Of a stretch of 30,277 bases of DNA, positions 1,778 through 22,087 are shown piece by piece. This DNA comes from a virus. The DNA lies in the IMG/VR virus record IMGVR_UViG_3300025652_000338, positions 1 through 30,277 of that record, one strand, 5' to 3'. The position numbers were made by a program, and so were the translations under genes. Below the pieces are notes generated by a model. It was not told where the DNA came from, made no database searches, and was given only the letters and a program-made list of their open reading frames with translations. The first letter of the stretch is position 1; each line of letters opens with the position of its first letter.

Positions 1778-1824
1778 GTGTAGCCGTGCTAAATAGTAGC
1801 CCAACAAAAAGGCAAGAAATGTAA
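1774..1824 (+). CDS. Possible 16-codon coupling ORF
   Basis: GTG at 1774 overlaps the upstream stop (GTGA), and its own stop TAA (1822-1824) overlaps the ATG of the 3363-aa gene (TAATG). The frame reads M/V-SVAVLNSSPTKRQEM. Both junctions have the form of the coupled junctions used elsewhere here, so ribosomes could move from the 152-aa gene to the giant gene through it. An AAGG-type Shine-Dalgarno for the giant gene lies inside it. It is equally possible that the peptide has no function and that the frame is chance. No family can be assigned. Confidence 0.3.
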   Translation: MSVAVLNSSPTKRQEM

Positions 1825-4800: not shown

Positions 4801-7800
4801 GGAGTGACGAAGGGGTCACTGCAAAGTTTGATATGTGGAAGGCGGCTGGAGAGAATTTAGAGAAGACAATAAAACAACTACCTCAAGATACTGTACAAGC
4901 TGGCAAAACTACTGGCTCACTAGCGTTACAAGGCGTAGCTGAGCTAGGCCAGTCATTCTTAGGTATGGCACGTTTTATAGGTAATAACCCAGCAGACCTA
5001 CCTGCGTATCAATTCTTAGAAGACATGATAGCTCTCGGCGAAGATTGGAAGAGCGACGACTGGAAAGCCGGTGCAGCTAATCTATCTGCTAATCTCGAAG
5101 CAAGAGGTGTAGATGACCCTAATACCCCAGAAAATGAAGCCATATGGGGGACTATGCAGGTTATAGGGGGCGCGTTCGCGGATAACCCTATAGAGTTCTT
5201 AGGCGAGGTGATATTTAAAGAAGGTATTCAAGAGATAATCCCACTTATTGTTGGTGGCGGTGTAGGGTATGTAGGAGGTCACCTTGGCGCTAAATTAGTA
5301 CAAAAGGAACTAAGCGAAAAGTTTGCACGTAATTTAGGGTTTGCCGCAGGCGTAAGTTTAGACATCGCCGAAAGTGCTGGCGGTACAGTGGAAGGTGCTT
5401 ACCAAGACGCCTACGATACAATACTCGCCTCTTTAACAGAAAAAAACTCTGAGACTGGGTATTCCACACAACAAATGGAGATAATGGCCGACCACTATGC
5501 ACAAGATATAGCGGTCAAGAACGGTATGTACGCTGCTATGGCTACTTCGGCCTTGATGTTAGCAGGTGGTGCCGCGTTAGATAAAACCGTTTTCGGAACT
5601 TTTGGGTCTGCGAAAATAAACCAAGAAGCGTTTACAGCTTGGGGTACGAAATTAAGCGGCGCTATGGCAACCGCAGGTAAGGAATCTATATCGGAGTTCG
5701 TTGAAGAGTTTGCTATAAATGACCATTTGGAAGGTATGCTTTATGATTGGGACGACACTCGTAATGTAACAGGTAACAACTGGTTTGCAGGTACTATGGG
5801 TGCTGTTATAGCTGGCCCTGTAACTGGCACTATGGCTGCTTTTATGCAGCCTAACCCTGACGCTGCTGCTATTGGTTTTACAATCCCAGATTTTGCAACC
5901 GCTTCGGGTACACGACAGTTCGCCTCTACAGGCAACACGGAAGCAGATTTACTAATCCAATTTAACCCTAATATAGCTGCCGCTGTGTACGGCAATTCCC
6001 CTACATTAGAGGCGGATTTAGATGCTTTAGGCGTTAACTATGGGGTGTACAGTGCGTTGGGGGATGCTGCAAACGATCCAGACTTTACAGGTAACCCGCT
6101 ATCAGTACCTAACCCTACCACGGAAATAGGTAGGCCCACCGTTGTAGAGCCTGACTTTACTAATTTTCCTGCGGCTGAAGCGGCTGACAATAACTTACAC
6201 TACGATGTTACCACTGATATTACTTACCGCTTTACTAACGGTACTTGGGATGCACGCGGAGCCGGTAATAATATTATCGACACGGGTGCTGAGCTTATAG
6301 AAGCACCTGCGTTTATAAGTAGCACCCCCACCGGGTCGGTTAACACTGGCGTATTTACCGACCCAGTTACTGGCATGCAGTACCTTGTCGAACAGCACTT
6401 AAACAGTGGGATAAAAAGACGTGTATATACGACAGTTTACGCGATAGCTAGCAATGCGCCTACTGGGCAAGAACTAGCTGACATAGCTCGACGTGAGTAT
6501 AATGAAGTTAGAGGTGAGGGTAGTGTGTCGTGGGTAGATTCTGTAATTGATCTTGCGACTACCACCAGTGGCGCTATATCTGGGTACAGAAGCGCAGAAT
6601 TTAGTACCCTAAACGACTTACTAAAAACGGCTAACCTATATAGCGATATGCTTAGCAACAATGTAAGCATCGAAGCAAGATCAGACGGCCTACAAAATGT
6701 AGCCATACCCGTGTATATAAAGGTTATGCAAGAACTAATCCCACAGATTAACAGAGAACGGGCGCGCTTAGGAATAACAAGTGAAAACGACACGTTTGAC
6801 GAAAACTTTTTCGGGGGGGCTATACCCTCAGCTTATTCTTTTGGTACGGGCCTTAGAGCCGAAGATAATGGTGCGTCCCGCCGAATACAGAGTTGGATAC
6901 TTGGCGAAGACGATAATAGAAATCTAACTTTAGACAGCTTCATGGACGTAATGTACCCTGATGGTGTAGTAGGTGATGGCAGCGGTAACTATATAGCTAA
7001 ACCAGAACTTCCTCAGGTACTTATAGACGTAACGAGTGAGGAAAATGAAGTAGCCCGCCTTCAGGCGTTGCAAGACGAGTATGAGGAGAAATTTGACAAC
7101 GCCGTGATGGATGCTAACTACGCGGGGGATGAGGACGAAGCAGCGCAAGCGCTAAATAGGGTTTCGTGGTGGAGGGAGCAGAAGGCTGCAAACCCTGCAT
7201 TGATAGCCGCCGCACAGGAAACTTTAGCCCAGCAGCGGGAAGCAGCCGAGGCCTCAGAGCTAAAGGCATTGGAGTACTTTAGGTTTAGGGCTGTAGAAAA
7301 TGGCTGGACTGTAGGCGATACAAATAGCTACATCCTACGTAATGGGCGGGACATAGTTGACTCGTTTGATACTATGTTTGATGGGGGCGGTGCGTTTAAC
7401 GAAGGGCAGTTCGATAACGTCTATGTCAACAACACCGACGCAAGCAAGAACTTCGCCAATATAGACGCGTCACCGAAACTGTCTCTTAACCAATTTAAAG
7501 ACATTTTAATTAAAGATAACGGACTTAGTGAAGCTGAGTACTACGCTTCTTTAGGGCCATCTCTGGGTACTACAAGGGAAGAACAAGACGCCAACATAAA
7601 AGCGTACTACTTAGATGCAATACACGACCCTAACAATTTAGACGCGTTTGGTAACCCTGTTGTAGGGCTAAGGGCTGATTCCCCACAAATTACTGACTAC
7701 GTAGAAGGTATAATAAATACTGAAGCGGAAGTAATTGCTGCGTATAAATCGGAGTTTGGGCAAGACTACGTTCCTACAGAAGAAGAGATAGCTCAGTACA

Positions 7801-10800
7801 TGGGGCTTACGTTCAGCCTAGATGGAGACGGTAATAGGGTAGATGATAACCCGCTAAGCGCCTTATATGACGAATTTACCTCTAAAAGTGACACCGACAA
7901 TATTATAAAATCGCTTGGCTATAGTAAACACGTCGGTAATAGCGGCGTAGTATTTGTTAGCGACAGCGACGGCACCAGAATAAGCGCAGATATTCTTTAT
8001 GGTGTTGTAAACCCTAGAAAAACCGCAGAGGAAAACACAACCGAATTAACGGAGTACCTGCAAAGACAAGCTGATGACACTAGCGATGATACTGCTGATG
8101 ACACTAGCGATGATACTGCTGATGATACTGCTGATGACACTGCTGATGATACTGCTGATGACACTAGCGATGATACTGCTGATGACACTAGCGATGATAC
8201 TGCTGATGACACTAGCGATGACACTGCTGATGACACTAGCGATGATACTGCTGATGACACTAGCGATGATACTGCTGATGACACTGGCGATGATACTGCT
8301 GATGACACTGGCGATGACACTGGCGATGATACTGCTGATGACCCAGTTGATGACACTGGAAAAATCTACTTTGAAGAAGGTAGGCATTTTAATGCCATAA
8401 TGGCCGCCATGAGAGACGCAGGGTACACGGGGACTATTACCAGCGCTGACCTCCTCGCTTTTTACTATACTGTACCTGACCTCCGAGACGTTGGCTATAT
8501 TAACCATGCGGATATGCTTAGTTGGTTAAGCGCCAACAAAGGATTTACAGGAGAATTTCCTCCCGAACCCGAACCCGGCCCCGGTTTTACGTACTTTAGC
8601 GAAACTGAAATACGTACCTTAGTAACTAATAAAGTTAACGCTTTAGGTGCCACACTTCCGCCTGCTAAACGTCAGGATTTAATAGATACCTACACGAACC
8701 AGCTTCTTGGTATAGAGAACGTTAGGAAAGAGGACGGGGAAGAAGGGTTTACGGAATCCGAGTTTACCGACTATTTACAGGTCATAGTCACGGGAGAGGT
8801 AACAAAACGTACCGATACTATAAATGCGTTTGGGGACTACAGCTATACCGAAGGAGAGATTGCCGATTACCTAAACAACAATGCGGGTATAGCTGCATAC
8901 TTAGAACCTAAGCAGTACACACTTGAAGAGGCTAAAGCTGATTTAGCTGCTGAGTTAGGTATAAGTGTTGGTGATATAGACGAAGAAACTTACGGTGTTT
9001 ACCTAAACAGTCTAGTAGATATGACCGGCGCTAGAACTGATGCACAGGGTGAAGATAAAGTACAAGGCGATATAACTAGTGAACAGGACGTAGAAAACTA
9101 CTTATCAGACTACGCGTTAGGTGAAGACTTTAGCTTTGACGGCTTAACAGGTTTAGGCGTTGACCTTGATACAGCTACGGCTGATTACAAAGCAGATAAC
9201 GAAACCATAGAGGAGACAACAGCTAGATTAGCAGCAGAAGAAGCAGCTAGAGTAGCAGCAGCACAAAAACGTACCGATACTGAAGCTGCATTTGGTGACT
9301 ATAACCCTAACGAAGATGAGGTTACTGCTTACTTAAACAACAACGAAGGTATAGCTGCATATGTAGACAATAATACTATTACTGAAGCTGAAGTTAAGCA
9401 GTCGTTAGAAGATCAGGGTTTTGATGTACCAGAAGGTTTTGACTACACACAGTATACGGGTAAGAAACCGCAAGCAAACTTAGATACAGCTACCCAAGCA
9501 TGGCGTGACGCTAATACCGTTACTGAAGCTGAGGTTAAACTTGCCTTAGAAGCTGAAGGGTTTACCGTACCAGAGGACTTTAACTACGATGCGTTTACTG
9601 GGAAAAACAAACCTGACACAGGGATAGAAGGTCAAGTAGACACATACTTAGAACCTAAACAGTACACACGCGAAGAGGCTAAAGCTGATTTAGCTGCTGA
9701 GTTAGGTATAAGTGTTAGTGATATAGACGAAGAAACTTACGGTGTTTACCTAGACAGCCTAGTAGATATGACCGGCGCTAGAACTGATGCGCAGGGTAAT
9801 ACCAAAATACAGAGTGATATAACTAGTGAACAGGACGTAGAAAACTACTTATCAGACTACACGTTAGGTGAAGACTTTAGCTTTGATGGTTTAACAGGTT
9901 TAGGTGTTGATTTAGACACTGCGCTAGGTGAGTTTAAGGCTGCCAATAGAACTACTGAGCAGAACGAACTCGCGGCAGACTTAGATGCCGCAGGGTGGAC
10001 AGGCGCTTCTGATGCCGACATAGCCGCGATACAGGGCTTAGACTCCGCTGGGCTTACCGCGTGGGTAGCTGACAGACAGTTTACTGAGCAGCAAGCCATT
10101 GATGCGTTAGCTGAACAAGGTATAACCGCAGACCACCCGCAGTTCCAGAGTTTAGTTGACCAGCTAGTAGTAGACAAAGGCGACGCAGGTACACCTACTA
10201 CGCAGGGTGCATTGGTAGACAGCCCAGAAGACACGCTGATAGATCAGTACATAATCACGCAGGATGAAATAGACTTTGCATTTGGCGGCTATCCAGACTT
10301 TGACGCTACTGGAGCACCAGATTTTACTGGTGTTATAGACGAGAGCACGTTAGCTAGTACTGTTAGTGAACACGTAGGGAACAACTACGTCACTACTACG
10401 CAAGCACGTGAGGCGCTAAATGGCATAGATGGTATAGATGCGCTAGCAGTAGATGATACTACTGGCGAGTACGTCATAACTGATGCCCAGCTTACTGAAA
10501 TGGGACTCGTTGGGCAGTACAACCCAGCAGACCTAGGCACTAAAATAGACGGCGCTACTGTAACAGAAGATGAGATAAACGAGTATCTAGTTACTCAGGG
10601 GTTTGACCCAGCCGTTGCGGGTACGTTCCCAACAACAATTAGTACTGACACCGCCGAGAACATAACTGCGCAGTACCGTGACGATAACGAAGTTACCTAT
10701 GATGAAATACGTCAAGCCCTAGCTGATGAATTAGGCGTTCCTGTTGAGAATTTATTCGATGAAAATAATGACCCATTGTCGGGGTATTCAGACGCCGAGC

Positions 10801-11915
10801 TAGCTCTTGTATACACTCAAGGCACAAACGTCCCTCAATCTGGCCTCGCCGGTGAGATAGCAGGAAATACTGACACGGGCACAGACCCAAGAGTTGGCGA
10901 TATAATAGATGCGTTCGGCACGCAGGGCACTACTACCGCAGGGGAAGATGGGATACTTGGAACCGAAGACGATGTAGTCGTATCGGCAACTGGTATCTAC
11001 GGTATTATCGATCAAGTCGCTCAAGGTGTTTTAACCAACGAAGAAGCTATTGCCGCGTTACAAGGGGCAGTTGGTGTACCCGCTACGTACGGCGAAGATG
11101 GCGTTACTGTCCTTACACCTGCAACTGGGATATACGCTCAGTCAGGAGAAGGTGTTAACGCTGACGTACTACAAGCTATAAATGCTGTGTACGACTACGT
11201 AGGCCAAGCTGACTTCGCTTCCAACGATATGGTACAAGAAGTAGCTAATATACTTGGCAAGCCCGCCGAACTGGTCACCCAAGAAGATATAGATGCCGTT
11301 AACCAAATGGTTGTGGATAACACTGCGGCTGGGTTAGCTGGAAATGAAGTAAATTATGACGCTAGGTACGACCTAAACAACGATGGAACTGTTAACTATT
11401 TAGACGACCAACTGTTTAACGAGCTGTATGCAGGAGAAGATTCACAGTACAACACGTATGTACAAGGTATTGATCCTAATTCCGTGTTTGCAGACACTGG
11501 CCTTTTTGGTACAGTAGCGTATGATAGGGAGCAAAACAGACTGTCTGATATTGCACTGCAAGAAGAAATTGATACGCAGGCTGCAATTGACGCACAAATA
11601 GCTCAGGATATTAATACCCAGATAGCTACTAACGCACAAGCGCAGCAAGATGCAGAAAAACGTTCTTTATTGTACGCCCTAGTGGCAGATCAAGGTAACA
11701 AACCCGCTGCTCCTGAGCCGTATGTAGCGCCGTTTAAACAAAGATACAACTGGGAATCAATTTTCTCAAGCGAACAAGAAGAGTCCGACCGTGGAAGAAT
11801 ATCTCCTTATGGTGGGTATAGTCCAGAACCGGAACAAGGTACTAAAGCAGCCGCAACTGGCGGCCTTATAACAGACGAATCAGATGAACTACTAGCTATG
11901 CTAGGGGTAGAGTAA
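1824..11915 (+). CDS. Giant internal/ejection-type virion protein (3363 aa)
   Basis: One uninterrupted frame of about 10 kb. N-terminus: MGLFDFNPLDPLGLG, a membrane-like stretch at about residues 88-107 (IAMILAYIFFPPAIPYI), then a Gly/Ala-rich region to about 210. A second Gly/Ala-rich membrane-like part lies at about 1136-1341. In between, at about 648-690, is one FD..YY...YG...HF...G..EGK unit like those in large secreted proteins. Residues 2084-2179 are 24 Asp-Asp-Thr-X repeats. Residues about 2328-2700 hold duplicated modules; more diverged 'T..E....L...G' modules follow to about 2900. A dockerin/EF-hand-like loop, D3183-x-N-x-D-G-x-V-x-x-x-D3194, lies near the end. The C-terminus carries AATGGLI (3343-3349). 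The layout resembles proteins packed in the head and ejected with DNA. I see no RNA-polymerase or lysozyme motif. The function is inferred from size, context and membrane-like segments; no family hit is claimed. Confidence 0.8.
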   Translation: MGLFDFNPLDPLGLGDDITNPLGLDFTIPDALAEVLKDEVEKNHDYFFHGGLDDDINWHIDKVAEEITDPAYEYQKAMFQSFADDPYYGIAMILAYIFFPPAIPYIQAAKAKSDGATWKEAAIVGAKSYVAGKFGGYFGDTVGATVGGYVASGLAAAGASAAVTATTTTIISNAISAGLAQGTVEVISGESFTDGFTSGALGSLVAAGTQSVLGYVETKLPNGLKYQTQARNADGQIVDASGRRVYESKAGTGAKGPDDITKLVTDNGVVRKAAEVFKTFPPVVQEMIAVGITAELQGKEVTPEMMYGVMARTLITTEVVGATMNKIPGVDFNTAKGQNFLPFLTAQIQTSIVQAASMGLNEESGYLAGQNLLAAFENYGSTMGFDSLFEFVEDTDAMQSILGAVDALTGKTDAAEAAAELAQAASNEFGGAVSDINDIANGQNDLYNEYLAAREVYEESGGQALTNARARWESSFDEEGNLKSEGLDDDYPATQGFTSFEDYYQTLAATQGYPSIAQLKISKGSLEKIETEFLSYVNKNSARLEELRDLTKQATFTTLTPEQAETTDAARLETVVNPLDGTETYYLLENGQRIVETPGGELFTNFQDSYGVFQQTQADMLTDLDYIEEQVIAGLTPEIQRDLVLLTNPSFDDAYYEAKYGDQFEEGMDSFAHFTAEGAKEGKFVSQGQADAFEAQAKEQFRLQVAEELSAGNGMGYLANVRSDATAKTNFDADVDAMWEANFYDEFDNFQSYKFETLQFLDQDGNPTSEAYSDVPLYRGGFERVQNDYVRKVPDAWSGMATTVATGMNYYDPNEFDFMDAEYARQALTTAALDDFNTAELANILSGGGVAFGQSGRLEFVTAATDGDNKFSMFDPVTGESNYLVDGLSFDYLKEVDNRSYLQTTADLFRAFGDRVGASADAYNADKLVAVEIEQLLADGIVDPATAIAINIGYINNQATLAIAEGLTNAGMYLVDGAVAQFDPDNPYGLLDWSDEGVTAKFDMWKAAGENLEKTIKQLPQDTVQAGKTTGSLALQGVAELGQSFLGMARFIGNNPADLPAYQFLEDMIALGEDWKSDDWKAGAANLSANLEARGVDDPNTPENEAIWGTMQVIGGAFADNPIEFLGEVIFKEGIQEIIPLIVGGGVGYVGGHLGAKLVQKELSEKFARNLGFAAGVSLDIAESAGGTVEGAYQDAYDTILASLTEKNSETGYSTQQMEIMADHYAQDIAVKNGMYAAMATSALMLAGGAALDKTVFGTFGSAKINQEAFTAWGTKLSGAMATAGKESISEFVEEFAINDHLEGMLYDWDDTRNVTGNNWFAGTMGAVIAGPVTGTMAAFMQPNPDAAAIGFTIPDFATASGTRQFASTGNTEADLLIQFNPNIAAAVYGNSPTLEADLDALGVNYGVYSALGDAANDPDFTGNPLSVPNPTTEIGRPTVVEPDFTNFPAAEAADNNLHYDVTTDITYRFTNGTWDARGAGNNIIDTGAELIEAPAFISSTPTGSVNTGVFTDPVTGMQYLVEQHLNSGIKRRVYTTVYAIASNAPTGQELADIARREYNEVRGEGSVSWVDSVIDLATTTSGAISGYRSAEFSTLNDLLKTANLYSDMLSNNVSIEARSDGLQNVAIPVYIKVMQELIPQINRERARLGITSENDTFDENFFGGAIPSAYSFGTGLRAEDNGASRRIQSWILGEDDNRNLTLDSFMDVMYPDGVVGDGSGNYIAKPELPQVLIDVTSEENEVARLQALQDEYEEKFDNAVMDANYAGDEDEAAQALNRVSWWREQKAANPALIAAAQETLAQQREAAEASELKALEYFRFRAVENGWTVGDTNSYILRNGRDIVDSFDTMFDGGGAFNEGQFDNVYVNNTDASKNFANIDASPKLSLNQFKDILIKDNGLSEAEYYASLGPSLGTTREEQDANIKAYYLDAIHDPNNLDAFGNPVVGLRADSPQITDYVEGIINTEAEVIAAYKSEFGQDYVPTEEEIAQYMGLTFSLDGDGNRVDDNPLSALYDEFTSKSDTDNIIKSLGYSKHVGNSGVVFVSDSDGTRISADILYGVVNPRKTAEENTTELTEYLQRQADDTSDDTADDTSDDTADDTADDTADDTADDTSDDTADDTSDDTADDTSDDTADDTSDDTADDTSDDTADDTGDDTADDTGDDTGDDTADDPVDDTGKIYFEEGRHFNAIMAAMRDAGYTGTITSADLLAFYYTVPDLRDVGYINHADMLSWLSANKGFTGEFPPEPEPGPGFTYFSETEIRTLVTNKVNALGATLPPAKRQDLIDTYTNQLLGIENVRKEDGEEGFTESEFTDYLQVIVTGEVTKRTDTINAFGDYSYTEGEIADYLNNNAGIAAYLEPKQYTLEEAKADLAAELGISVGDIDEETYGVYLNSLVDMTGARTDAQGEDKVQGDITSEQDVENYLSDYALGEDFSFDGLTGLGVDLDTATADYKADNETIEETTARLAAEEAARVAAAQKRTDTEAAFGDYNPNEDEVTAYLNNNEGIAAYVDNNTITEAEVKQSLEDQGFDVPEGFDYTQYTGKKPQANLDTATQAWRDANTVTEAEVKLALEAEGFTVPEDFNYDAFTGKNKPDTGIEGQVDTYLEPKQYTREEAKADLAAELGISVSDIDEETYGVYLDSLVDMTGARTDAQGNTKIQSDITSEQDVENYLSDYTLGEDFSFDGLTGLGVDLDTALGEFKAANRTTEQNELAADLDAAGWTGASDADIAAIQGLDSAGLTAWVADRQFTEQQAIDALAEQGITADHPQFQSLVDQLVVDKGDAGTPTTQGALVDSPEDTLIDQYIITQDEIDFAFGGYPDFDATGAPDFTGVIDESTLASTVSEHVGNNYVTTTQAREALNGIDGIDALAVDDTTGEYVITDAQLTEMGLVGQYNPADLGTKIDGATVTEDEINEYLVTQGFDPAVAGTFPTTISTDTAENITAQYRDDNEVTYDEIRQALADELGVPVENLFDENNDPLSGYSDAELALVYTQGTNVPQSGLAGEIAGNTDTGTDPRVGDIIDAFGTQGTTTAGEDGILGTEDDVVVSATGIYGIIDQVAQGVLTNEEAIAALQGAVGVPATYGEDGVTVLTPATGIYAQSGEGVNADVLQAINAVYDYVGQADFASNDMVQEVANILGKPAELVTQEDIDAVNQMVVDNTAAGLAGNEVNYDARYDLNNDGTVNYLDDQLFNELYAGEDSQYNTYVQGIDPNSVFADTGLFGTVAYDREQNRLSDIALQEEIDTQAAIDAQIAQDINTQIATNAQAQQDAEKRSLLYALVADQGNKPAAPEPYVAPFKQRYNWESIFSSEQEESDRGRISPYGGYSPEPEQGTKAAATGGLITDESDELLAMLGVE
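8073..8360 (+). repeat. 24-unit 12-bp minisatellite encoding Asp-Asp-Thr-X
   Basis: Exactly 24 tandem 12-base units, GAT-GAY-ACT-NNN, encode DDT followed by A, S or G; unit 23 reads DDPV. Most units fall in pairs, GATGACACTAGC followed by GATGATACTGCT, giving a 24-bp higher-order unit. Unit length is a multiple of three, so the frame stays open after gain or loss. The array lies inside the 3363-aa gene (residues 2084-2179) and makes an acidic, probably extended linker. Confidence 0.95.
8805..9923 (+). repeat. Duplicated protein modules in the giant gene
   Basis: Three kinds of direct repeat are nested here. Type A: 279 bp at 8898-9176 and 9645-9923 (offset 747), 85 of 93 residues identical, starting YLEPKQYT and ending GLGVDLDTA. 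Type B: about 34 residues at 8805 and 9267, starting KRTDT and ending GIAAY. Type C: 31 residues at 9375-9467 and 9516-9608, T[IV]TEAEVK through [YF]TGK. The order is B-A-B-C-C-A, which suggests duplication followed by divergence. More diverged 'T..E....L...G' modules continue to about 10800. Confidence 0.9.
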
Positions 11916-11921
11916 AATATT

Positions 11922-14279
11922 ATGGGTTTAACAACAGATGGCAAAGAAATTACTTTAAGCGATGCGTGGGATAATTTTGGTGGTAGCATCAAAGAGATGG
12001 GCGGTAGTTTCCTTGATTGGGGTACTAGTAAAGACGGTGTTCGGAAGTTAGCTTCTCTAGGGCTGTCCTCTGCTTTTGGTGATGAGCTTGCCCGTAACCC
12101 CGCTAAGGTAGGGTACCAAGGGTCTATCCCAGATTACACCATGGTACGTGAGCGTGTGAACCCCACAGCGTCACGCAACCTCCCAAGAGATGAGCAAGGT
12201 AGACTGGGTTTAGGCGGCGCTAAAGCCCGCCGATTCTTCTCCGATGCTAAATACATAGAAAACGCTGGCGGCCTTAGTGGTAGAGAGAAGACTGCTGCGG
12301 TACTAGGTGAGGATGCAACCCAATACACAAAAGATACCCTCGGCGCACAGTACAGAGACTTGTTGGCTAGCGATAAAGTTTACACCGCTGCCGAACAAGC
12401 AGCTAACCCCACAGAATTAGGCTACACAGAAGACGGGCGTAGGATATTTATACCTGATGAGAAAGCTGCATTCTTAGGGCAAAGAGATCGCGTGGCAGAC
12501 GGTAGTCAAGTGTTAGGTGGCGTTTACCAAGTCCCACAGGTGGAAGACCCAACTACTGGCGAGATGGTAGACGACCCCGCTTATACTTCTTCTCGCAACG
12601 AGGAAGGACTTGATGTTTACTCCGACGGTACCGGCGCTGAGACTCTTGTTGACCCAGTTACTGGACGTCAGATAGAGAGCGGAGCAATGTTTGATGCTGA
12701 CGCTGTTTACGACGACGAAGGTTACGCGACTTTCCGCCCTAACGAAGGTGCTATATTTAACGAAGATGACTATTTAATTGAGACGCTGGGCACACAGCAG
12801 GAAGACAAGTCGTATGACGATACAGGGCGGGAACTTGCAAGTGCAGCCGAGTACTTTACAAATTTAGAAGTCGCACAACAAGATGCGCGAGCACAAGCAA
12901 ACGTGTTAGGTGGTGTAGCTGGCCAAGCAGGAATAACAGGGGCTGCTACTGGTGGCTTGATGCGCTACGCTAACGGTGGTGGTGTTGGGTCGAGATTGAA
13001 AAAATTTGCTAAGGATGTAAGCAACCCTAGCATGAGCGGTATCGGGTTCCTAGATGGGGCTACCGATGGTATGGCTGATGAAGTGCCCGCTACTATAGAA
13101 GGCACTCAGCCCGCTGCGTTGAGCGATGGCGAGTTTGTTATAACTGCTGATGTTGTATCTCATTTAGGTAACGGTAACACCGAGGCAGGTGCTAAGTTAC
13201 TAGAAGACTTTATGAAAGACATTCGTAGAAAACGTACGGGTACTACAGACCAAGGCAAGGAGATAAACGCTAAGCAGGAAGTGGCGGGGCTTGAAAGTAT
13301 GCCAACACGTATGGCCGCTACTGGCGGGCAAATTAAGAAGTTTGAGGAAGGTGGCCCAGTCTCGGGTGTAGACAGTACATTTAGCCCCATAATGGGCGAC
13401 TACTTAACCGATATGTTAGGTAAAGGGCAGGCTGCGGCGAATAACCCGTTTGAAGCCTACGACGGCTACGGTGCTACTTATACGGACATACTTGACGACG
13501 ATGATAACGTAATTGGTTCAGAGCTAGACGAAGCGGGTATATTAACTGCCGGTTCTTCTGCACTGCAAGACCAAGCGTTTACTTCCGCAGGTAACATTGA
13601 TACTCGCGGGTTTGGTGATCTTACCAATGAAGAACTAATGGGCACCCCCAGCGCTACTGGCGAAATAGACGCCTATGGTAATCCTGTTACTGAGGGTGGT
13701 TTAATGAACCCTTTCATCCAAGGTTCTCTTAACCCACAACTACGAGCGGCACAAGAGGAAGCAGCTAGGCAAGAGGCCGAACAGAACATACGCATGACGC
13801 AATCGGGTGCATTCGGTGGTTCTCGGAACGCGATTATGAGTGCTATGCTGGCACGAGATTCGGCGCAGAACCAAGCAGATATTGTGGCGAAAGGCTACAA
13901 CACGGCGTACACTAACGCGCGTGATCAGTTCGGGGAAGACCGTCAGTTTGGTTTAGATACCATACAACAACAAGCTGACCTAGGGCAGACTCAAAGCGAT
14001 ATACTCCAAACTAACATTGATGCTGATAGAACTGCGTTTGAAGATCAACGCGATTACCAAGCTAAGATTCCTCAGTACATGAACGACCTATTACAGTACT
14101 TACCACTTGGCTCTACAGCTAACCAATCGAGTTCGGACAGTGACTTGGCCCAGTTAATAGGTAATACCGGCGCTATTGATGAGATGCTCGGTGGCGAACA
14201 AAGTGGAGGGGCTATTCCAGCCGGATACTCGTTAGGTACTGATGCAAGTGGCTTCCCAACTTTAGTTAGAAATACATAG
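11922..14279 (+). CDS. Virion structural protein with LSDGEFVI and AATGG motifs (785 aa)
   Basis: Starts six bases after the giant gene's stop; the Shine-Dalgarno is weak. The N-terminal 330 residues are acidic and loosely repetitive. AATGGLMRYANGG lies at 341-353, then a region with DEVPATIEG and ALSDGEFVITADVVSHLGNG, a pattern I recall from tape-measure and internal virion proteins of phages, then a second AATGGQIKKFEEGG at 465-478. The C-terminal third (NPFIQGSLNPQLRAA, QSGAFGGSRNAI, KGYNTAYTNARDQFGEDRQFG, FEDQRDYQAK) is a Gln/Ala-rich helical region that I recall from structural proteins of aquatic podoviruses. No enzyme motif or signal peptide is seen. Probable role: internal or connector-associated virion protein working with its large neighbours. 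Confidence 0.7.
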   Translation: MGLTTDGKEITLSDAWDNFGGSIKEMGGSFLDWGTSKDGVRKLASLGLSSAFGDELARNPAKVGYQGSIPDYTMVRERVNPTASRNLPRDEQGRLGLGGAKARRFFSDAKYIENAGGLSGREKTAAVLGEDATQYTKDTLGAQYRDLLASDKVYTAAEQAANPTELGYTEDGRRIFIPDEKAAFLGQRDRVADGSQVLGGVYQVPQVEDPTTGEMVDDPAYTSSRNEEGLDVYSDGTGAETLVDPVTGRQIESGAMFDADAVYDDEGYATFRPNEGAIFNEDDYLIETLGTQQEDKSYDDTGRELASAAEYFTNLEVAQQDARAQANVLGGVAGQAGITGAATGGLMRYANGGGVGSRLKKFAKDVSNPSMSGIGFLDGATDGMADEVPATIEGTQPAALSDGEFVITADVVSHLGNGNTEAGAKLLEDFMKDIRRKRTGTTDQGKEINAKQEVAGLESMPTRMAATGGQIKKFEEGGPVSGVDSTFSPIMGDYLTDMLGKGQAAANNPFEAYDGYGATYTDILDDDDNVIGSELDEAGILTAGSSALQDQAFTSAGNIDTRGFGDLTNEELMGTPSATGEIDAYGNPVTEGGLMNPFIQGSLNPQLRAAQEEAARQEAEQNIRMTQSGAFGGSRNAIMSAMLARDSAQNQADIVAKGYNTAYTNARDQFGEDRQFGLDTIQQQADLGQTQSDILQTNIDADRTAFEDQRDYQAKIPQYMNDLLQYLPLGSTANQSSSDSDLAQLIGNTGAIDEMLGGEQSGGAIPAGYSLGTDASGFPTLVRNT

Positions 14280-14294
14280 AATAGAGCATATATT

Positions 14295-15827
14295 ATGGCG
14301 ATGACAGGTGGTATAGGTAACATGTTGAGCGCAGTGGATAAGACCGCTGGCGTCAATGCTGGTAACCCTCAAAAACTTCAAAGAGAAGTTGGGCAGGGTA
14401 AGAACCAAGATATGGTTAAGGCTCTAGCGTTACAGCAGGTTAAGTCTGACTACGAAGCTGCGGCAAGAAACACTCAAATGCAGATGGAGCAGTCTCCTAA
14501 AAACGTACTACAGCAACGCGAAGATGAAGTAATGAATCTCGCTATGCAACAGGTTATGGGCGATGCTAAGACCGGCCAAGCAGTAAACCAAAAAGCGCAA
14601 GGTAAGGCTCAGCAAGGCATGATGAAGAACGCTTTAGCTCAGCAGCAGCAGCAAGGTGCGCCACAACAAAGACCTCCACAAGGTATAGCCCAACAACAAG
14701 CTATGCCACAAGGTGCGCCAGCGCAAAGTATGCCAAGGTCTGGTATGACACCGATGGGTATGGCTGGGCCAACGCGAAGGGCTGCTACTGGCGGTTTAAT
14801 GCGCTACGCCGAAGGTGGTTCGGTAGAGGAAGAGAAGAAAAAGAGAGGGAAGACAGGCTTTGAAAAAATTAAAGAAAACCCAGTAAAGGGTATTGCAGGC
14901 GCTTTGGGGGCGGTAGCTTTGGCATCCCCTATGGCTAAGGGTGTAGGTTTTGTTGGTAAAAATGCAATGAAACTCGCGCCTAAAGCAATGCGAGGATTAC
15001 GTAGCCTTGGTAGTAAAGCTGTTACTAAACCTAACCCTAACGCTCTACAAGGCGCAACACGTAAAGGTACCCCGTTATCACCTGATCGAGTTGTGTCTCC
15101 TAGCAGAATTGCAGGTACAGCCAGTGCAGGACTATTCGGTGCTGATTACCTAACAAGCCCGCAAGGCGGAGAAGAAGCTCCAGAAGCAGCTCCAGAAGCA
15201 GCTCCAGACGTAAAAGCAATGGGTGAGGGTCTTGGGTCTGTAGGTACTAAACCTAAACCGCCACAACTATCTGCGTTAGAACAACACCGCCAGAATAAAC
15301 CTGAGCTACCACAACAGGCTCCGCAAAACTTTAGCAGTAGGTTTAATACATTCGCTATGAACTTAGCTGATACTCCTCTAACTAGAGCGGGTAGAGCAGT
15401 GCGCGCTGAAAGTGCCCAGAGAGCAGATCAGGAATTTAAACGGGCGCTAGCGGAACGAGAAACGTGGGCGACAGAACTACAGTTACTGACACAACAAGAC
15501 GTAGCTAAAGTTACCAATCTAAAAGACTACGGGATTAAACTCCAAACAATGGCGGCGGGTATAGCCACAACCCTGACTGAGGGTTCGGGTATAGAGAATC
15601 TAAAAATGATGGCGGCGCAAGACCCTGATAATGAGGAACTACAAGCTCGACTAGCTAAAGAAGACCAAGATTTAAAAGACGCTATCATAGGGGCATTAAA
15701 TATGAATGGTCTGTCGGATACAATACAAGAAGTCAATAAAGCGTTAAAGAACTCCCTTGGCATATCCGGCCAAGGCGGGCTAAACTTAAACGCTAAAGAT
15801 GAACAGTTAGTAGCAAACTTCTCATAA
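14295..15827 (+). CDS. Gln-rich virion-associated protein with AATGG motif (510 aa)
   Basis: ATG 14295 follows the 785-aa gene by 15 bases; the Shine-Dalgarno is weak. Residues about 30-110 are helical and Gln/Met/Lys-rich (ALALQQVKSDYEAAARNTQMQ), followed by a Gln/Pro-rich low-complexity tract, then RRAATGGLMRYAEGGSVEEE (163-175 core), almost the same as in the preceding protein. Residues about 195-230 are Gly/Ala-rich and hydrophobic (GIAGALGAVALASPMAKG), possibly membrane-active. The C-terminal 170 residues are helical (FKRALAERETWATELQLL). There is no catalytic motif. The composition and shared motif indicate that it is packaged or assembled with the proteins on either side. The family name is unknown to me. 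Confidence 0.65.
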   Translation: MAMTGGIGNMLSAVDKTAGVNAGNPQKLQREVGQGKNQDMVKALALQQVKSDYEAAARNTQMQMEQSPKNVLQQREDEVMNLAMQQVMGDAKTGQAVNQKAQGKAQQGMMKNALAQQQQQGAPQQRPPQGIAQQQAMPQGAPAQSMPRSGMTPMGMAGPTRRAATGGLMRYAEGGSVEEEKKKRGKTGFEKIKENPVKGIAGALGAVALASPMAKGVGFVGKNAMKLAPKAMRGLRSLGSKAVTKPNPNALQGATRKGTPLSPDRVVSPSRIAGTASAGLFGADYLTSPQGGEEAPEAAPEAAPDVKAMGEGLGSVGTKPKPPQLSALEQHRQNKPELPQQAPQNFSSRFNTFAMNLADTPLTRAGRAVRAESAQRADQEFKRALAERETWATELQLLTQQDVAKVTNLKDYGIKLQTMAAGIATTLTEGSGIENLKMMAAQDPDNEELQARLAKEDQDLKDAIIGALNMNGLSDTIQEVNKALKNSLGISGQGGLNLNAKDEQLVANFS

Positions 15828-15841
15828 CAGGTTAATACCCA

Positions 15842-18800
15842 ATGGCTTCACTAGAACAAGTACATAAGGCGTACGAAAACGCTAAACTTGCAGGCAATGT
15901 GGAAGCCGCAGATAGACTGCAAGCTATCCTGTACAAAGGTATGGGCGTTAGTGCCCCTAAGAAGTTTGAACCTATCCCAGAAGACGATACGGGTATTATC
16001 GGCAACACATTAAAAGGTATTGGCACAGGGGCGGTTGGGTATATTGAATCCGCTGCTCTCGGCGCAGCTACCATGCTGGATGAAGAGGCCGAGCTTAAAG
16101 CCCGTAAAAAGATACAATCCGTAGCTGATAAGTTTACTCCCGAAGGTGGTGATAAAGACTCTAAAGCCTATAACGTAGGGTCGGGCCTCGGCTCTATTCT
16201 TGGTGCAGGTGCAGCTACGTTAGTAGGTGGTGCAGTTGGTGGAGCTAGAGGTGCAATTGCCGCAGGTACCGCCGGTGGTGTTGGAACGCAAGTCGGTGAG
16301 GCGAGTGAACGTGCCCGTGCCGCAGGTGCCACACAAGAACAACGTAACCGCGCAATAACTAGCCCGCTGATTATCGGTGCGGGTTTACTAGAAACCATCC
16401 CCTACCTGAAGGCTGTCGGCAAATTTAGTGCGCCTACTGCTAACAGCTTAAACAAGATGCTTGGCGGCGACAGACAACTCAAAGGTCTACTTGACCGAGC
16501 TAGAAGTGCCGCAACCACTGGTGGTATAGAAGCTGTACAAGAACTTGCCCAGAACACCGCGCAAAACTTAGTCGAGCAAGGGTACAACCCAGACAGAGAA
16601 CTCACTGAAGGTGCTGCTGCGTCTGCCGGATATGGTGGAGCTACAGGTGCTATCTTCCAACTATTTATAGACATACTCCCGGGGAGACGAAGAGGTGCTA
16701 CGCCACAACGTGATGAGACAGGCCCAGAGTCAGAGGCGGATGTACAAGATGAAGTTGCCGAAGGAGAATTTAGTGAAGCAGAAATCCTTGCCGCCCAAGG
16801 AGAACTGTTCGACGACGAAGCCGCACCCATCCCAGAAACTACAACCCCAGTAGTAGAGGTCGAGAAAGAAAAGAAAGAAGCAGCGCCCGAAGCAGCACCA
16901 GTCCAAGGTGACCTGTTTGGTGAGGCAGAGGCAGACGTAGTACCTAAAGCAGCGCCTAAATTAGAAATACCCGCCGAAGCTATCGCCGAAATTAAAGCTG
17001 TGGTAGAAGGAAAGGAACAGGTATCACCTGTAAAAGCCAAAGGAAAACCTAAACGCGCAGACGTCCTAGCGGAAGTAATTAAAGCTAACCCTACCGTTGT
17101 TGATGAAAAACCCTTACGCCAGTTGTTTAGGAAAGCATTAACGGGGGCTGGGTTTACAAGAACTTCCCCCAACAAAAAAGAACAGGCAGCCCTACAAGCT
17201 AGAGCTAAAGGAGCTACGCAAGATGCAGATGTTACAGCACAGCCAGAACCTACCACAACTGAAGCAGGAGGAAGTGGAGCTAGCGTTCTCGGTAATACAC
17301 AAGGTGTGGAATCAGGACGGGAGCAAGTTCAAGACCCCGCCGCAGTTAAGGCATCTACAGCTAGAGGAGTGGAAGTGTCTGATGGAGTCATTGATACGCC
17401 TACTGATAGAAAAGGAAAGCGCAAGGCTACACTGACACGTCCTCCTGTAACTAAGAACGTTGTCGCCCCGGGAACAACCACAAGAGGTACCACACCTAAA
17501 CTTGTTAGTGGCCGTATGGGTGCCGCAGGGCGGATGGAAGAAATCCGTAAGACTGGCTACATAGACGAAGTGCCTGACAGTAAAAACCCTGTAACAGATA
17601 CAGATAGGCAAGCTGTTAAAAATATAGTTGCTATAGGTAAGACTGCTAAGGCCAGAAGAGAAAAAAGTACCGCTGCTAAACCACCCGCTCGTAAGCTACC
17701 TGAAGTAGTGCAGGAATACTTAAAAGATGTTCCTGACCCCATAGACGGGATTATGAACGCTATAAACGATGTAGCAATAGAAACTACAAGACCTGCAAGG
17801 GAAGAGCTAGAAGCCTTAGACCCTACCGTTGCGGGGCTACGAGAAGCTAGAGATGTGGCTTCGGCTGAGAAGACGTTAGCGTGGGCTAAGAAAAATATGT
17901 CCCCAGAAGTCGGTAAGTTTATCGACAAGAAGCTAGCGGATAAAAAGAAAGAGCTAGAAGAAAAGCCTCCTATTGATAAAATGTTAGTAGATGCAGACCT
18001 CAAGGAACGGAGGAGAAACCGCAAACGTAAGCTAGAGAAAAAAGAAGCTCAAGAAGAAGTACTTGACCAAGCACAGTTTGAAAAAGCAGAGGAGCAGCTA
18101 CTCAAGCAGCTAAACGAAGATGTAGACGAGGATAAGCAACAGAAGACCGTAGCGGCGAAAAAAGTCGTAGAATACATGCGTGTTACTGAGGGCTTTAAGA
18201 AGTTTGCTACTCTACCTCCGAAGCCTAAGAAAAGTAAGGCGCAAAAAGAAGTAGATGAAGTAGTAGCAACGCTAGACGAGATAGAAGTCTACGACGAAAT
18301 AAACGATGTTGTTGCGGCTGAGTTAGGTATAGACCTGAACGTAGACAGTTTCGCTAACTTAGGTAAAGACACAGATGCCCTTGTTACAGACCTAACTCCT
18401 GAGATAGTTAAACTACTTGGGGACGGTGACTTAAAAGGTGCAATAGAAGCAGTAGCTAAACTACCTATTACCCCACGTGTTAAAGCTGCTGCGGAAGCAT
18501 TGGCGAACTATGTGGGCGACGCTAAGGTAGTTGTAGTAGATGACAAAACTAATAACGCTGCATCCAAAGAATTTGCGCGGGCGGAAAAAGAATTTAAACA
18601 GAAGTATGGCGAAGATAAAGTACTTAAAGGGTTGTACGTTGCTAGCGACAATGCCTTAGATAATACTATTATCCTCGGCCCTAAAGGGGTTAACGTCCAC
18701 ACGTTACTACATGAAATGACGCACGCAGCGACAGTTAAGGCTCTGACAACCAAAGGCGATCCAATAACCAAGCAGCTAAATAATATATACAAACAAGTTA

Positions 18801-21800
18801 AGGGTACGCTACCTACAGTTTACGGTAGTACCAATTTACTTGAGTTTGTAGCCGAGGCGTTTAGTAACCCAAGTTTCCAAAAAGACCTTTCTAAGATATA
18901 CAAGAAAGACATGACCCTTAGTATGTTCCAGAAATTTGCTAACGCCGTGAATAACTTGTTCCGCCGTATAATGGGTATGTCATTTAAACCTGTATATAAA
19001 GGGGACGAAAACACTTTTAGTGCTCTATCGAAGACCGATGCCCTTATCCTGCAAATACTACAACCCGCTATGGGCGTAAACGAGGGTATAACTCTAGCGC
19101 ACATGTCTACTAAGGAAGGCGTGCAGACGGTTATGGGTAACCTAGGCAAGATACAGAAAGCCTTTAAGCCCATGAGTAAGCCAGACGGCGCTAAGTTCGG
19201 CGACAAGGCTGTAGATTTTGTTACAGGCTCTCCTCGTAAATTAGGAGGCGCATTGCTAGAACTTGCCCCTATGCTAGCCATGGTAGATATAGCCACCAGT
19301 GCTAACGCTAAGCTAGGTAAGATGGCCAAGGCATTAAACGATGCTTTCTTAAAACAACGTGCGGACATAAGAGAGTCGGACAACGACCTTAACGTAATTA
19401 AAGGTGAGTTTGCTAAGTGGGCGGATAAACAAGACAAAGCCACGATAACGCGCTTCAACGATGTAGTGTACAGCTCCACAACTAAGCAGATTGACGTTGC
19501 CGAAAAGAAAGCAAGTGACTACAAAGGCGACGACCTTATCGAGTTCAACAGGCTAAAGAAAGAGTGGGACGCTCTTGGCCCAGACGGACAGAAAGTCTAC
19601 AACGATATGCGTCAGGCTTACAGAAACCAATTCGTTAGACTAAAAGAAGCTATCTTTGGTGACATAGATAAAGCTAGTACCGATGCGAAATCGGCGACGC
19701 AAGTAAAGAACTTGTTGACCAAACGACTATTCGAGAAGACTGAATTATCGGTTTACTTCCCGTTGTTGCGTGAGGGTGAGTATAAGTTAGTGTACCAACT
19801 AAAGACTGACAGAGAGAGTGACGAAGACCAGACACAGGTAGAGATGTTTACTACTAGAAGAGCCATGAAACGTAGAATGGTAGAGGTAGAAAACGACCCC
19901 GAAGTAGTTAAGAATAAGATATATACCTATGAAACGGGCAAGAAGTCTATTAGTGGTGGGGCTGTGGTGCCTCCTACGGCTTTCGTTAACACCATACTTG
20001 TACAGTTAGATGCGGCTGGGGTAGACAAAGAAGTATCCTCGAACATACTTGAGTTGTACATAGATTCACTACCAGAATCAGCTTTCGCTAAGACTATTCG
20101 CAAACGTAAGAACATTGAGGGTTACATCCCCGATGCTTTGTACACGTTTAATAGGAAGGCATACGACATAGGCAGACAAATTGCGCGCCTAAGTAACGCC
20201 TCTAACCTATCGGCTATACAAGGTGAAATAAACGAGTTCGCTAAGCTAGAAGAATCGACCATGCAGGACGACCCTAAACGCAAGGGTAAAGTAAACGCAT
20301 TTAACGACATCGTAAACCAGCTTAACATGCGTGCTAACTACGCTAGAAATCCTAAGACTAATTTACAAGTGTACGCGCAAGCAGTTAACCGCCTTGCATT
20401 TATGTACACCATAGGGTTTAACGCCTCGTCTGCTATTGTCAACATGTCTCAGATACCGCTGTTTATTATGCCTTACCTGAGTGCAGAGTATGGTATGGGT
20501 AACACAGGCAGGGCTATAAAAGACGCAGGTAAACTCATTACTGCGAGTAGTTCGGTACTAACAAAAGAAGGTAAAAAGTTAGGTAAGTCTCTAAAGCGTA
20601 GAATCAACCGTAAAGATGACGTTACAGAAGATATAGAGTTTGAAGGTAAAGCTAGCTTAGAGAACTACTTTATTGCTAGGTACGATAAAGCTACTAACTC
20701 GCATGTCTACGACCTTCGTGACGACATAGTGTTCCCCAATGCCGAGGTTAAAGCGATGGTGGAATCAATACAACCATTAGTACAGGCTGCGGCAGACGCT
20801 AACCAATTAGATCAGTCTGTTATAGGCTCAGAGATTAACGTCGATCAGTCGGGGCAACAACGTGGTATTACGGACAGTGCGACTAGGCTGGGTGCGTGGG
20901 GCTTCCATAATGTGGAGAACTATAACCGACAGACTACGTTAGCTACCACCTACTTACTGGCGCTACGTAAGCTAGAGACGGACAAAGGAAGACCTGCTTC
21001 GGTAGAGGAAAAGCAAGACCTAGCGGCTAAGTCACTGACTAAAACGCAGGAACTTAATGGAGGCTCAGTAAAAGAAACAGGCGCTAGACTAGCGCAGACT
21101 GACGTAGGTAGTGTGGCGTTGATGTATAAGAACTTTGGTATACAGATGTACTACAACATGTTTAAGTCTTTTAAAGTTGCCCTAGACAGGGACAAGAGCT
21201 ACACCAAAGAAGAACGAAAGATCGCAATGAAGCAGTTGGCGGGTGTGCATCTTACCTCGTTGTTCTTCGCGGGTGCTCAGGGCGTACCGATATACGGCGC
21301 AATTAAACTAGTAGCTAACATGTTTATGGATGACGAAGAGGAAGATTGGGATTCGTACGTACGTAGGCACATAGGTGAAGGTTGGTACAAAGGTGCAGTC
21401 ACTAAGTACTCAGGTGCGGACGTGTCTAAACGTGTTTCTCTTGGGCAGTTATTATTTCAGACTAACCGCTATAACCCAGATGCTTCAGTAGAAGAAGATA
21501 TATTCTTTTATCTTGGTGGCCCTGCATGGAGTACGTTCTCAGGAGTAAAACGTGGTATTGAAGACATATATCGGGGTAATTTAGAGCGTGGTATTGAGGG
21601 TATGGTACCTGCGGCATTCCGTAACCTTAACAGGGGTCTTAATAGGTACAACCGTGAGGGTGCGGCAACACGTAGAGGCGACGTTATATACGATGACTTC
21701 AGTGCGGGAGAGCTTGCCGGGCAGGTACTAGGTTTTGCCCCTCGTGACTACGCGTTTAAGCAAGAACAGAACATGATGAGTAAAGGCATCGAACGTAACA

Positions 21801-22087
21801 TAGCAGAGAAACGTTCTACACTACTTAAAAAGTATTACATAGCCAGCCGCAAGGGTGATTGGTATGGGCGTGCAGATGCGATGGGGGATATAACTGCGTT
21901 TAATAAGCGGCACGCTCCTAAGTATGGGACTAAAGTGTTTATTAGCACCGACACCATTGATAAGTCTATGAGACAGCATATGAAGCAGTCGGGCAAAATG
22001 CACAATGGGGTAACTTTAAATCCTTCGCTAGAGGCAGGGTTAAGGATGCAGCAGAACGAATGGGACAAAGGTTGGCAGTTGTTCTAA
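15842..22087 (+). CDS. Large polyvalent-type internal virion protein with HEMTH zincin motif (2081 aa)
   Basis: Starts 15 bases after the preceding stop. Residues 1-30 (EQVHKAYENAKLAGNVEAADR) resemble the AGD/AA-type helix found at N-termini of ejection proteins. Residues about 55-290 include Gly/Ala-rich membrane-like segments (GLGSILGAGAATLVGGAVGG) and GGIEAVQELAQN. Residues about 290-750 are charged, Ala/Pro/Lys/Glu-rich linker with two QG[ED]LF motifs (319, 355). HEMTH at 957-961 with ExxxE at 1001-1005 gives a zinc-metalloprotease-like signature. The rest is largely helical and ends in a region with GADVSKRVSLGQLLF and SAGELAGQVLGFAPRDYAF, in the style of large polyvalent (LPD) phage proteins; the specific LPD number is not claimed. 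Likely packaged in the head and ejected; the protease may process virion or host proteins. Motifs are read directly; the role is inferred. Confidence 0.75.
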   Translation: MASLEQVHKAYENAKLAGNVEAADRLQAILYKGMGVSAPKKFEPIPEDDTGIIGNTLKGIGTGAVGYIESAALGAATMLDEEAELKARKKIQSVADKFTPEGGDKDSKAYNVGSGLGSILGAGAATLVGGAVGGARGAIAAGTAGGVGTQVGEASERARAAGATQEQRNRAITSPLIIGAGLLETIPYLKAVGKFSAPTANSLNKMLGGDRQLKGLLDRARSAATTGGIEAVQELAQNTAQNLVEQGYNPDRELTEGAAASAGYGGATGAIFQLFIDILPGRRRGATPQRDETGPESEADVQDEVAEGEFSEAEILAAQGELFDDEAAPIPETTTPVVEVEKEKKEAAPEAAPVQGDLFGEAEADVVPKAAPKLEIPAEAIAEIKAVVEGKEQVSPVKAKGKPKRADVLAEVIKANPTVVDEKPLRQLFRKALTGAGFTRTSPNKKEQAALQARAKGATQDADVTAQPEPTTTEAGGSGASVLGNTQGVESGREQVQDPAAVKASTARGVEVSDGVIDTPTDRKGKRKATLTRPPVTKNVVAPGTTTRGTTPKLVSGRMGAAGRMEEIRKTGYIDEVPDSKNPVTDTDRQAVKNIVAIGKTAKARREKSTAAKPPARKLPEVVQEYLKDVPDPIDGIMNAINDVAIETTRPAREELEALDPTVAGLREARDVASAEKTLAWAKKNMSPEVGKFIDKKLADKKKELEEKPPIDKMLVDADLKERRRNRKRKLEKKEAQEEVLDQAQFEKAEEQLLKQLNEDVDEDKQQKTVAAKKVVEYMRVTEGFKKFATLPPKPKKSKAQKEVDEVVATLDEIEVYDEINDVVAAELGIDLNVDSFANLGKDTDALVTDLTPEIVKLLGDGDLKGAIEAVAKLPITPRVKAAAEALANYVGDAKVVVVDDKTNNAASKEFARAEKEFKQKYGEDKVLKGLYVASDNALDNTIILGPKGVNVHTLLHEMTHAATVKALTTKGDPITKQLNNIYKQVKGTLPTVYGSTNLLEFVAEAFSNPSFQKDLSKIYKKDMTLSMFQKFANAVNNLFRRIMGMSFKPVYKGDENTFSALSKTDALILQILQPAMGVNEGITLAHMSTKEGVQTVMGNLGKIQKAFKPMSKPDGAKFGDKAVDFVTGSPRKLGGALLELAPMLAMVDIATSANAKLGKMAKALNDAFLKQRADIRESDNDLNVIKGEFAKWADKQDKATITRFNDVVYSSTTKQIDVAEKKASDYKGDDLIEFNRLKKEWDALGPDGQKVYNDMRQAYRNQFVRLKEAIFGDIDKASTDAKSATQVKNLLTKRLFEKTELSVYFPLLREGEYKLVYQLKTDRESDEDQTQVEMFTTRRAMKRRMVEVENDPEVVKNKIYTYETGKKSISGGAVVPPTAFVNTILVQLDAAGVDKEVSSNILELYIDSLPESAFAKTIRKRKNIEGYIPDALYTFNRKAYDIGRQIARLSNASNLSAIQGEINEFAKLEESTMQDDPKRKGKVNAFNDIVNQLNMRANYARNPKTNLQVYAQAVNRLAFMYTIGFNASSAIVNMSQIPLFIMPYLSAEYGMGNTGRAIKDAGKLITASSSVLTKEGKKLGKSLKRRINRKDDVTEDIEFEGKASLENYFIARYDKATNSHVYDLRDDIVFPNAEVKAMVESIQPLVQAAADANQLDQSVIGSEINVDQSGQQRGITDSATRLGAWGFHNVENYNRQTTLATTYLLALRKLETDKGRPASVEEKQDLAAKSLTKTQELNGGSVKETGARLAQTDVGSVALMYKNFGIQMYYNMFKSFKVALDRDKSYTKEERKIAMKQLAGVHLTSLFFAGAQGVPIYGAIKLVANMFMDDEEEDWDSYVRRHIGEGWYKGAVTKYSGADVSKRVSLGQLLFQTNRYNPDASVEEDIFFYLGGPAWSTFSGVKRGIEDIYRGNLERGIEGMVPAAFRNLNRGLNRYNREGAATRRGDVIYDDFSAGELAGQVLGFAPRDYAFKQEQNMMSKGIERNIAEKRSTLLKKYYIASRKGDWYGRADAMGDITAFNKRHAPKYGTKVFISTDTIDKSMRQHMKQSGKMHNGVTLNPSLEAGLRMQQNEWDKGWQLF

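Follow-up and report, generated by a model that had tools for sequence, protein, structure and literature searches.

The capsid targeting sequence (CTS) of bacteriophage T4 is N-terminal, comprises about ten residues and is cleaved by gp21. It is all that the internal proteins of T4 have in common, and through it they are loaded into the core of the prohead (PMC3012670). The ejection proteins gp7, gp20 and gp16 of P22 are recruited into the procapsid through the scaffold (PMC8402733), and in T7 an extended segment of gp16, the 'molecular tape', docks on and stitches gp15 (PMC8954989). Even for P22 and T7, the way in which ejection proteins reach the procapsid and assemble in sequence as they leave is an open question. 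The 30-kb virus record IMGVR_UViG_3300025652_000338 (30,277 nucleotides, analysed over its whole length and hereafter called the window) encodes three consecutive virion-type proteins of 3363, 785 and 510 amino acids (aa) that carry a short AATGG motif, which may be a docking or encapsidation tag. As with the T4 CTS, one short motif is common to otherwise unlike proteins, here of probable internal location; as in P22, the proteins form a set of neighbouring ejection-type proteins, although no shared motif is described for P22 in that source. The T7 tape differs from the motif in being about 70 residues long and in not being common to several proteins.

The motif is real, widespread and position-specific. 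The proteins of the window contain exactly four in-frame instances of AATGG (copies 1 to 4, Table 1), at the residues given by the first-pass annotation of this DNA. By comparison, 2000 within-protein shuffles of the three proteins yielded 0.063 copies on average and two at most, and the longer string AATGG[LQ][MI], also present four times, never appeared in shuffled sequence. The claim that the proteins otherwise share no visible sequence holds for the 785-aa and 510-aa pair, for which short-word BLAST among four neighbouring proteins found only the motif and its immediate flanks to be strongly similar (E 8e-7 and 0.004). For three of the copies, the same annotation had described a continuation x-x-[YF]-x-x-GG; the spacing to the aromatic varies, being GG-LM-R-Y in copies 2 and 4 and one residue longer, GG-QI-KK-F, in copy 3. 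A profile of the family of the 510-aa protein (termed the third protein below) scored copy 2 at 25.5 bits, copy 4 at 25.2 bits and copy 3 at 5.0 bits, gave copy 1 no score, and found nothing notable in the other proteins of the window.

As an exact string, AATGG is a local variant, since the DNA pattern of AATGGLM was found in only three contigs, among them that of a sister phage (a 64-kb contig, L001/L002; genome G001) and L097, where the motif precedes the GPGTVTSDSIPG element. The sister's counterparts of the 785-aa and 510-aa proteins are 79% and 76% identical to those of the window. Its copy 4 is unchanged in protein (AATGGLMRYAEGGSV) and base for base identical in DNA over the motif, and its copy 1 is almost unchanged. 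The sister versions of copies 2 and 3 (ATGGKVMKYNNGG and FANGGQVKKFQEGG) have lost 'AAT' and kept GG, the hydrophobic residue, the aromatic and the second GG, so AATGG can be read as one variant of a broader pattern. Copies 2, 3 and 4 belong to [MFYA]A-x-GG-[IL]-[VMA]-x(0-2)-[FY]-x-x-GG, and the conserved core is A-x-GG-hydrophobic...aromatic-x-x-GG.

Beyond the window, this pattern is essentially confined to the same gene module, as would be expected of a motif limited to the ejection-type proteins of related phages; its frequency is far above random and its position is conserved in homologues. Across 93 phage loci, the regular expression A.GG[ILVMFYQ].{1,3}[YFLM]..GG has 37 matches in proteins with the SDGEFV element, a tape-measure-like segment of the 785-aa protein (expected 0.32), and 8, 32, 10 and 1 matches in the four genes that follow (expected 0.24 combined), making 88 in all (expected about 0.6). 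A single match lies at position -1, occupied in the window by the 3363-aa protein (expected 0.2), and none in 754 proteins elsewhere in these loci (expected 0.34). An unbiased scan of viral contigs for DNA encoding MA.GGIV.[FY]..GG returned at least 83 in-frame matches; among the matches listed, about 81 are in third proteins, one is in an SDGEFV protein and one is in a tape-measure-like protein. Third proteins were assigned by size, by a preceding LPAPN-type segment and by neighbouring genes, and for 38 of the matches listed, in loci without a recognisable SDGEFV gene, the assignment was made by these three features. The tape-measure-like protein, encoded on a 109-kb virus contig (L122:1356-3179, minus strand), carries WMARGGIVGFDRGGVLPPG and is the only one among the matches listed that is clearly outside the module. 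The same pattern is rare in bacterial and archaeal genomes, with only eight stretches in 257 Gb: GLUG-like repeat proteins account for five, a transporter for one and the same viral module for another, and the remaining one is outside any kept open reading frame (ORF). A search of open-access full text found the motif strings described in no paper.

The third proteins are highly divergent: with the exception of the sister's, the 39 that were aligned are 12-23% identical to that of the window. Their only invariant columns are Met1 and the motif glycines G166, G167 and G174, while position 171 is F or Y in 37 of the 39 and position 169 is V, M or I in all of them. With a leave-one-out profile, the best match exceeded 30 shuffles in 36 of 38 third proteins. 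The motif begins anywhere from residue 82 to residue 166, and P, Q and G are over-represented in the 40 residues preceding it. In an AlphaFold2 model of the 510-aa protein built from 38 sequences, an N-terminal helical domain (7-118) and a C-terminal one (323-487) are joined by a low-confidence linker, and the motif falls within a stretch (154-319) with a predicted local distance difference test score (pLDDT) below 50; copy 4 lies, by this prediction, in a disordered linker. Such a nearly invariant island in disordered surroundings is characteristic of short linear motifs. The model of the 785-aa protein, based on nine sequences, was uninformative (pLDDT 39).

Copy 1 is a related but distinct element, equally position-specific, in which GG is combined with an amphipathic ...LLxLLG end. 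Proteins at position -1 vary in length between 299 and more than 3300 aa, and many of them have the C-terminal sequence A-x-GG-x-[IVL]...[DE]-[LI]-[LI]-x-[LI]-[LI]-G. The corresponding regular expression, which the tail of the window's own protein narrowly misses, matched 21 of 80 proteins at position -1 versus 0 of 1211 elsewhere. The four AATGG copies thus represent two related, position-specific elements. Of the original description of one AATGG motif in three proteins, the existence of a tag survives; the letters proved to be local, and copy 1 falls in another motif class.

Copy 3 lies at a gene junction. In the 785-aa protein, two genes are fused; its C-terminal half is the FGGSR domain, which most relatives encode as a gene of its own. 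In 70-odd split relatives, INPNKFLPA or a similar sequence closes the SDGEFV protein and a new gene follows. In all nine fused proteins (those of the window, L001, L025, L042, L043, L045, L050, L055 and L067), a GG motif starts no more than a few residues from the split point, in degenerate form in L050. Half motifs (M..[FY]..GG) open some of the split FGGSR proteins (L032, L047, L056, L066 and L072). Taken together, the motifs at fused junctions and the half motifs of split proteins indicate that the element is retained at domain ends, whether the genes are joined or not. The junction position is more readily explained by docking or processing than by random placement.

The interpretation given most weight, at about an even chance, is that the motif is a docking or encapsidation tag of ejection-type proteins that acts like the T4 CTS. 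In this view, a large group of aquatic, podovirus-like phages equips its ejection-type proteins with a short linear tag, placed in flexible linkers and at the ends of domains. The tag would bind one common partner, which may be the scaffold, the portal or core, or another ejection protein; through this partner the set may be loaded together into the procapsid, stitched together in the ejection conduit, or both. The proposal draws on the restriction to the module, the glycines kept amid divergence, the predicted disordered setting, the specific C-terminal tail, the lack of detectable S78 or ClpP-type prohead protease (see below), and covariation: the motif variants of two proteins within a phage resemble each other more than those across phages (p 0.003-0.015, relatedness not removed), as expected if the partner is common. 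Several points weigh against a docking tag. The covariation is partly confounded by relatedness; the strict motif is absent from L025 and L070 and from the third proteins of HTVC027P, Caulobacter RW and ctpbd312; the position at gene-fusion junctions would equally suit a cleavage site or a linker; and, unlike the N-terminal tag of T4, the motif is internal in the third and SDGEFV proteins and C-terminal in the 3363-aa protein. It differs from the T4 CTS also in being glycine-based and in the lack of a detectable S78/ClpP prohead protease in 11 relatives. A wider claim is made only tentatively: that A-x-GG-[IV]-x-x-[FY]-x-x-GG is a new encapsidation/ejection tag that loads and orders several unlike ejection proteins alongside a giant injected polyvalent protein (2081 aa in the window) throughout this large aquatic podovirus-like group, and that it could send other proteins into the virion if fused to them. 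A short, nearly invariant tag in phages with giant injected anti-host proteins offers one small target to mutate or to fuse to a reporter. As an annotation signature, the motif marks families left unnamed by Pfam and PHROGs and links them to siphophage tape measure proteins.

The principal alternative, appreciably less probable, is that proteins are processed at the GG motif during maturation or on entry, separating their domains. A host peptidase or the zincin of the giant protein would release an N-terminal propeptide from the 510-aa protein, separate SDGEFV from FGGSR, and remove a 15-residue C-terminal peptide from the 3363-aa protein. The placement of the motif in the nine fused proteins, exactly where split relatives change gene, is that of a polyprotein site; the linker is predicted to be disordered and would be accessible; and 48 of the 52 giants scored have an HExxH site. 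For polyvalent proteins, processing by a zincin has been proposed (PMC5512222), and P22 gp7 is cut by host OpdA, after which it starts KGGKG (PMC8402733). However, half motifs persist at the N-termini of proteins that are already split, the giant itself has no motif copy (its search with the motif profile was negative), and the conserved core, which spans both GG pairs and the aromatic, is wider than usual P4-P1 sites. For the giant's zincin as the processing enzyme, a strict count of co-occurrence with the motif (37/11/4/6) was suggestive, but the association was not significant (p 0.22) once the motif was relaxed and uncut giants were used (46/3/2/1); the zincin and host peptidases are still candidates. 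A prohead protease site, one option of the first-pass annotation, resembles the motif in so far as such sites, for example the A-x-E motif of SPN3US gp245 (PMC10052503), are short and recur in several proteins. It differs in that both flanks of the motif are conserved, in that the portal, scaffold-like and capsid proteins of the sister lack the motif, and in that neither S78 nor ClpP-type prohead protease was found in the 64-kb sister and ten long motif-bearing relatives (0 of 11 records, many of them perhaps incomplete), a search whose control, the portal, was found in 9 of 10 records. That option is therefore not supported. A search of the sister for the S77 (T4-type) protease gave no match, but neither did the control genomes.

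It is improbable that the motif is a passive flexible linker or hinge, a glycine-rich spacer that lets helical domains extend and refold through the portal and has no binding partner. The location of the motif at domain boundaries, and in the predicted disordered P/Q/G-rich stretch between helical domains, is what a spacer would occupy. A spacer would not, however, keep an aromatic, a V or I and three glycines nearly invariant in proteins of 12-23% identity, nor would otherwise dissimilar proteins within a single phage carry spacers of one class. A membrane- or periplasm-active peptide, with glycine/hydrophobic segments that insert into or line a conduit through the host envelope after ejection, is more improbable still. 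The composition GG-I-V-x-F-x-x-GG resembles that of membrane-perturbing peptides, and 2 of 38 third proteins match lytic-tail, transglycosylase or endolysin families, so action on the envelope is possible; yet the hydrophobic run is only 4-5 residues long and tolerates charged residues, and motifs of this class are also found next to the SDGEFV element and where domains meet. Common descent without function, with the motif as a remnant of coding sequence that was duplicated or shared and was spread between neighbouring genes by recombination, would account for the several codons that copies 2 and 4 have in common and for the identical copy 4 DNA in two phages whose proteins are 76% identical, but it was already disfavoured and is the least credible explanation, as codons differ between the window copies and yet the motif is the most conserved protein feature in many divergent phages.

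Table 1. Motif copies and module genes, with their positions in the window
Feature	Position	Strand	Description
3363-aa virion-type protein	1824..11915	+	Module position -1; C-terminal tail holds copy 1; conserved in relatives
Motif copy 1	11850..11912	+	From aa 3343 of 3363-aa ORF; C-terminal tail AATGGLITDESDELLAMLGVE
785-aa protein	11922..14279	+	N-terminal part, SDGEFV (tape-measure-like) element and FGGSR domain
Motif copy 2	12942..12980	+	aa 341 of 785-aa ORF; AATGGLMRYANGG; N-terminal of TDGMADEVPA..SDGEFV element
SDGEFV element	13047..13244	+	DGMADEVPAT..LSDGEFVITADVVSHLGNG; common to siphophage tape measure proteins
Motif copy 3	13314..13355	+	aa 465 of 785-aa ORF; AATGGQIKKFEEGG; SDGEFV/FGGSR domain junction
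510-aa protein (third protein)	14295..15827	+	Putative third ejection-type protein, directly upstream of giant
Motif copy 4	14781..14819	+	aa 163 of 510-aa ORF; AATGGLMRYAEGG, then SV
2081-aa giant 'polyvalent'/DarB-like protein	15842..22087	+	LPD39 and HEMTH zincin-type site

The proteins of the module (Table 1) are probably ejection proteins, their virion location, packaging and ejection being suggested by synteny, homology and the lytic-family matches mentioned above. A similar order of SDGEFV protein, FGGSR protein, a protein of ~300-650 aa and a large last protein is found in MinM2, HTVC027P, 023Pt_psg01, DSL-LC04, ctpbd312 and Caulobacter RW; the large last protein is annotated as a DNA transfer protein in DSL-LC04 and as a transglycosylase in ctpbd312. 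The giant of the window matches Pfam LPD39 (35.5 bits, cut-off 27) and the PHROG for DarB-like antirestriction proteins (1.2e-42), and its HEMTH sequence is an HExxH site. With both an LPD domain and a zincin-like HExxH, it is polyvalent as PMC5512222 uses the term.

The resemblance of the module to that of P22 is one of synteny only. No sequence homology was found between the window proteins and P22 gp7, gp20 or gp16, and the 510-aa protein has no PHROG, Pfam, PDB-sequence or fold match. Fold searches with the 510-aa model returned nothing below E 0.001 in PDB or BFVD, comparison of the 785-aa and 510-aa proteins with solved structures by sequence gave chance matches only, and the 3363-aa protein had no match in Pfam or PHROG searches.

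The SDGEFV element, which has 80 relatives in viral contigs, is homologous to part of the siphophage tape measure proteins: its profile matches solved structures 8zdo/8zdq (E 1.4e-14) and 8rk3 (E 3.7e-6), in which the corresponding element, GG-x-x-GPGTG-SDSIPA-LSxGEF, is likewise preceded by GG. The siphophage element is part of the tape measure itself, whereas the [IV]..[FY]..GG motif is found mostly in another protein family. Pelagibacter phage HTVC103P gp79 (L006:26674-27969, minus strand) contains RAATGGLMKMSIGG and MATGGLMNMPPF together with an SDGEFV element; its gene lies between the portal and capsid genes, which makes it a tape-measure-like protein within the head-gene block.

Other features of these proteins differ among the phages. 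The middle of the 3363-aa protein contains a low-complexity DDTADDTS/DDTGDDT repeat, replaced in the sister by a GGDT repeat (L001 from 5516), so that a fast-changing tract lies inside a giant virion-type protein. In ctpbd312, a spring-water phage, the SDGEFV and FGGSR proteins (L008:16109-21993, minus strand) are unusually rich in cysteine, with CC and CCSC runs. In many relatives (L035, L038, L039, L041, L046, L048, L049, L051 and others), a gene for a protein of ~135-145 aa is inserted at position +1, after the SDGEFV gene; by eye the product resembles a GNAT-type acetyltransferase, and the sister has a gene of similar size (131 aa, L226:2083-2478).

The sister genome also has a second shared tag, outside the range covered by the window. 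At ~52.5-54.1 kb of G001 (L226:14470-16084, minus strand), three consecutive small basic proteins of 117, 245 and 172 aa have one common tail, KGGKVRG-x-G-x-A-KxGVRKCKMR, and looser GG/basic versions of it occur in two flanking small proteins.

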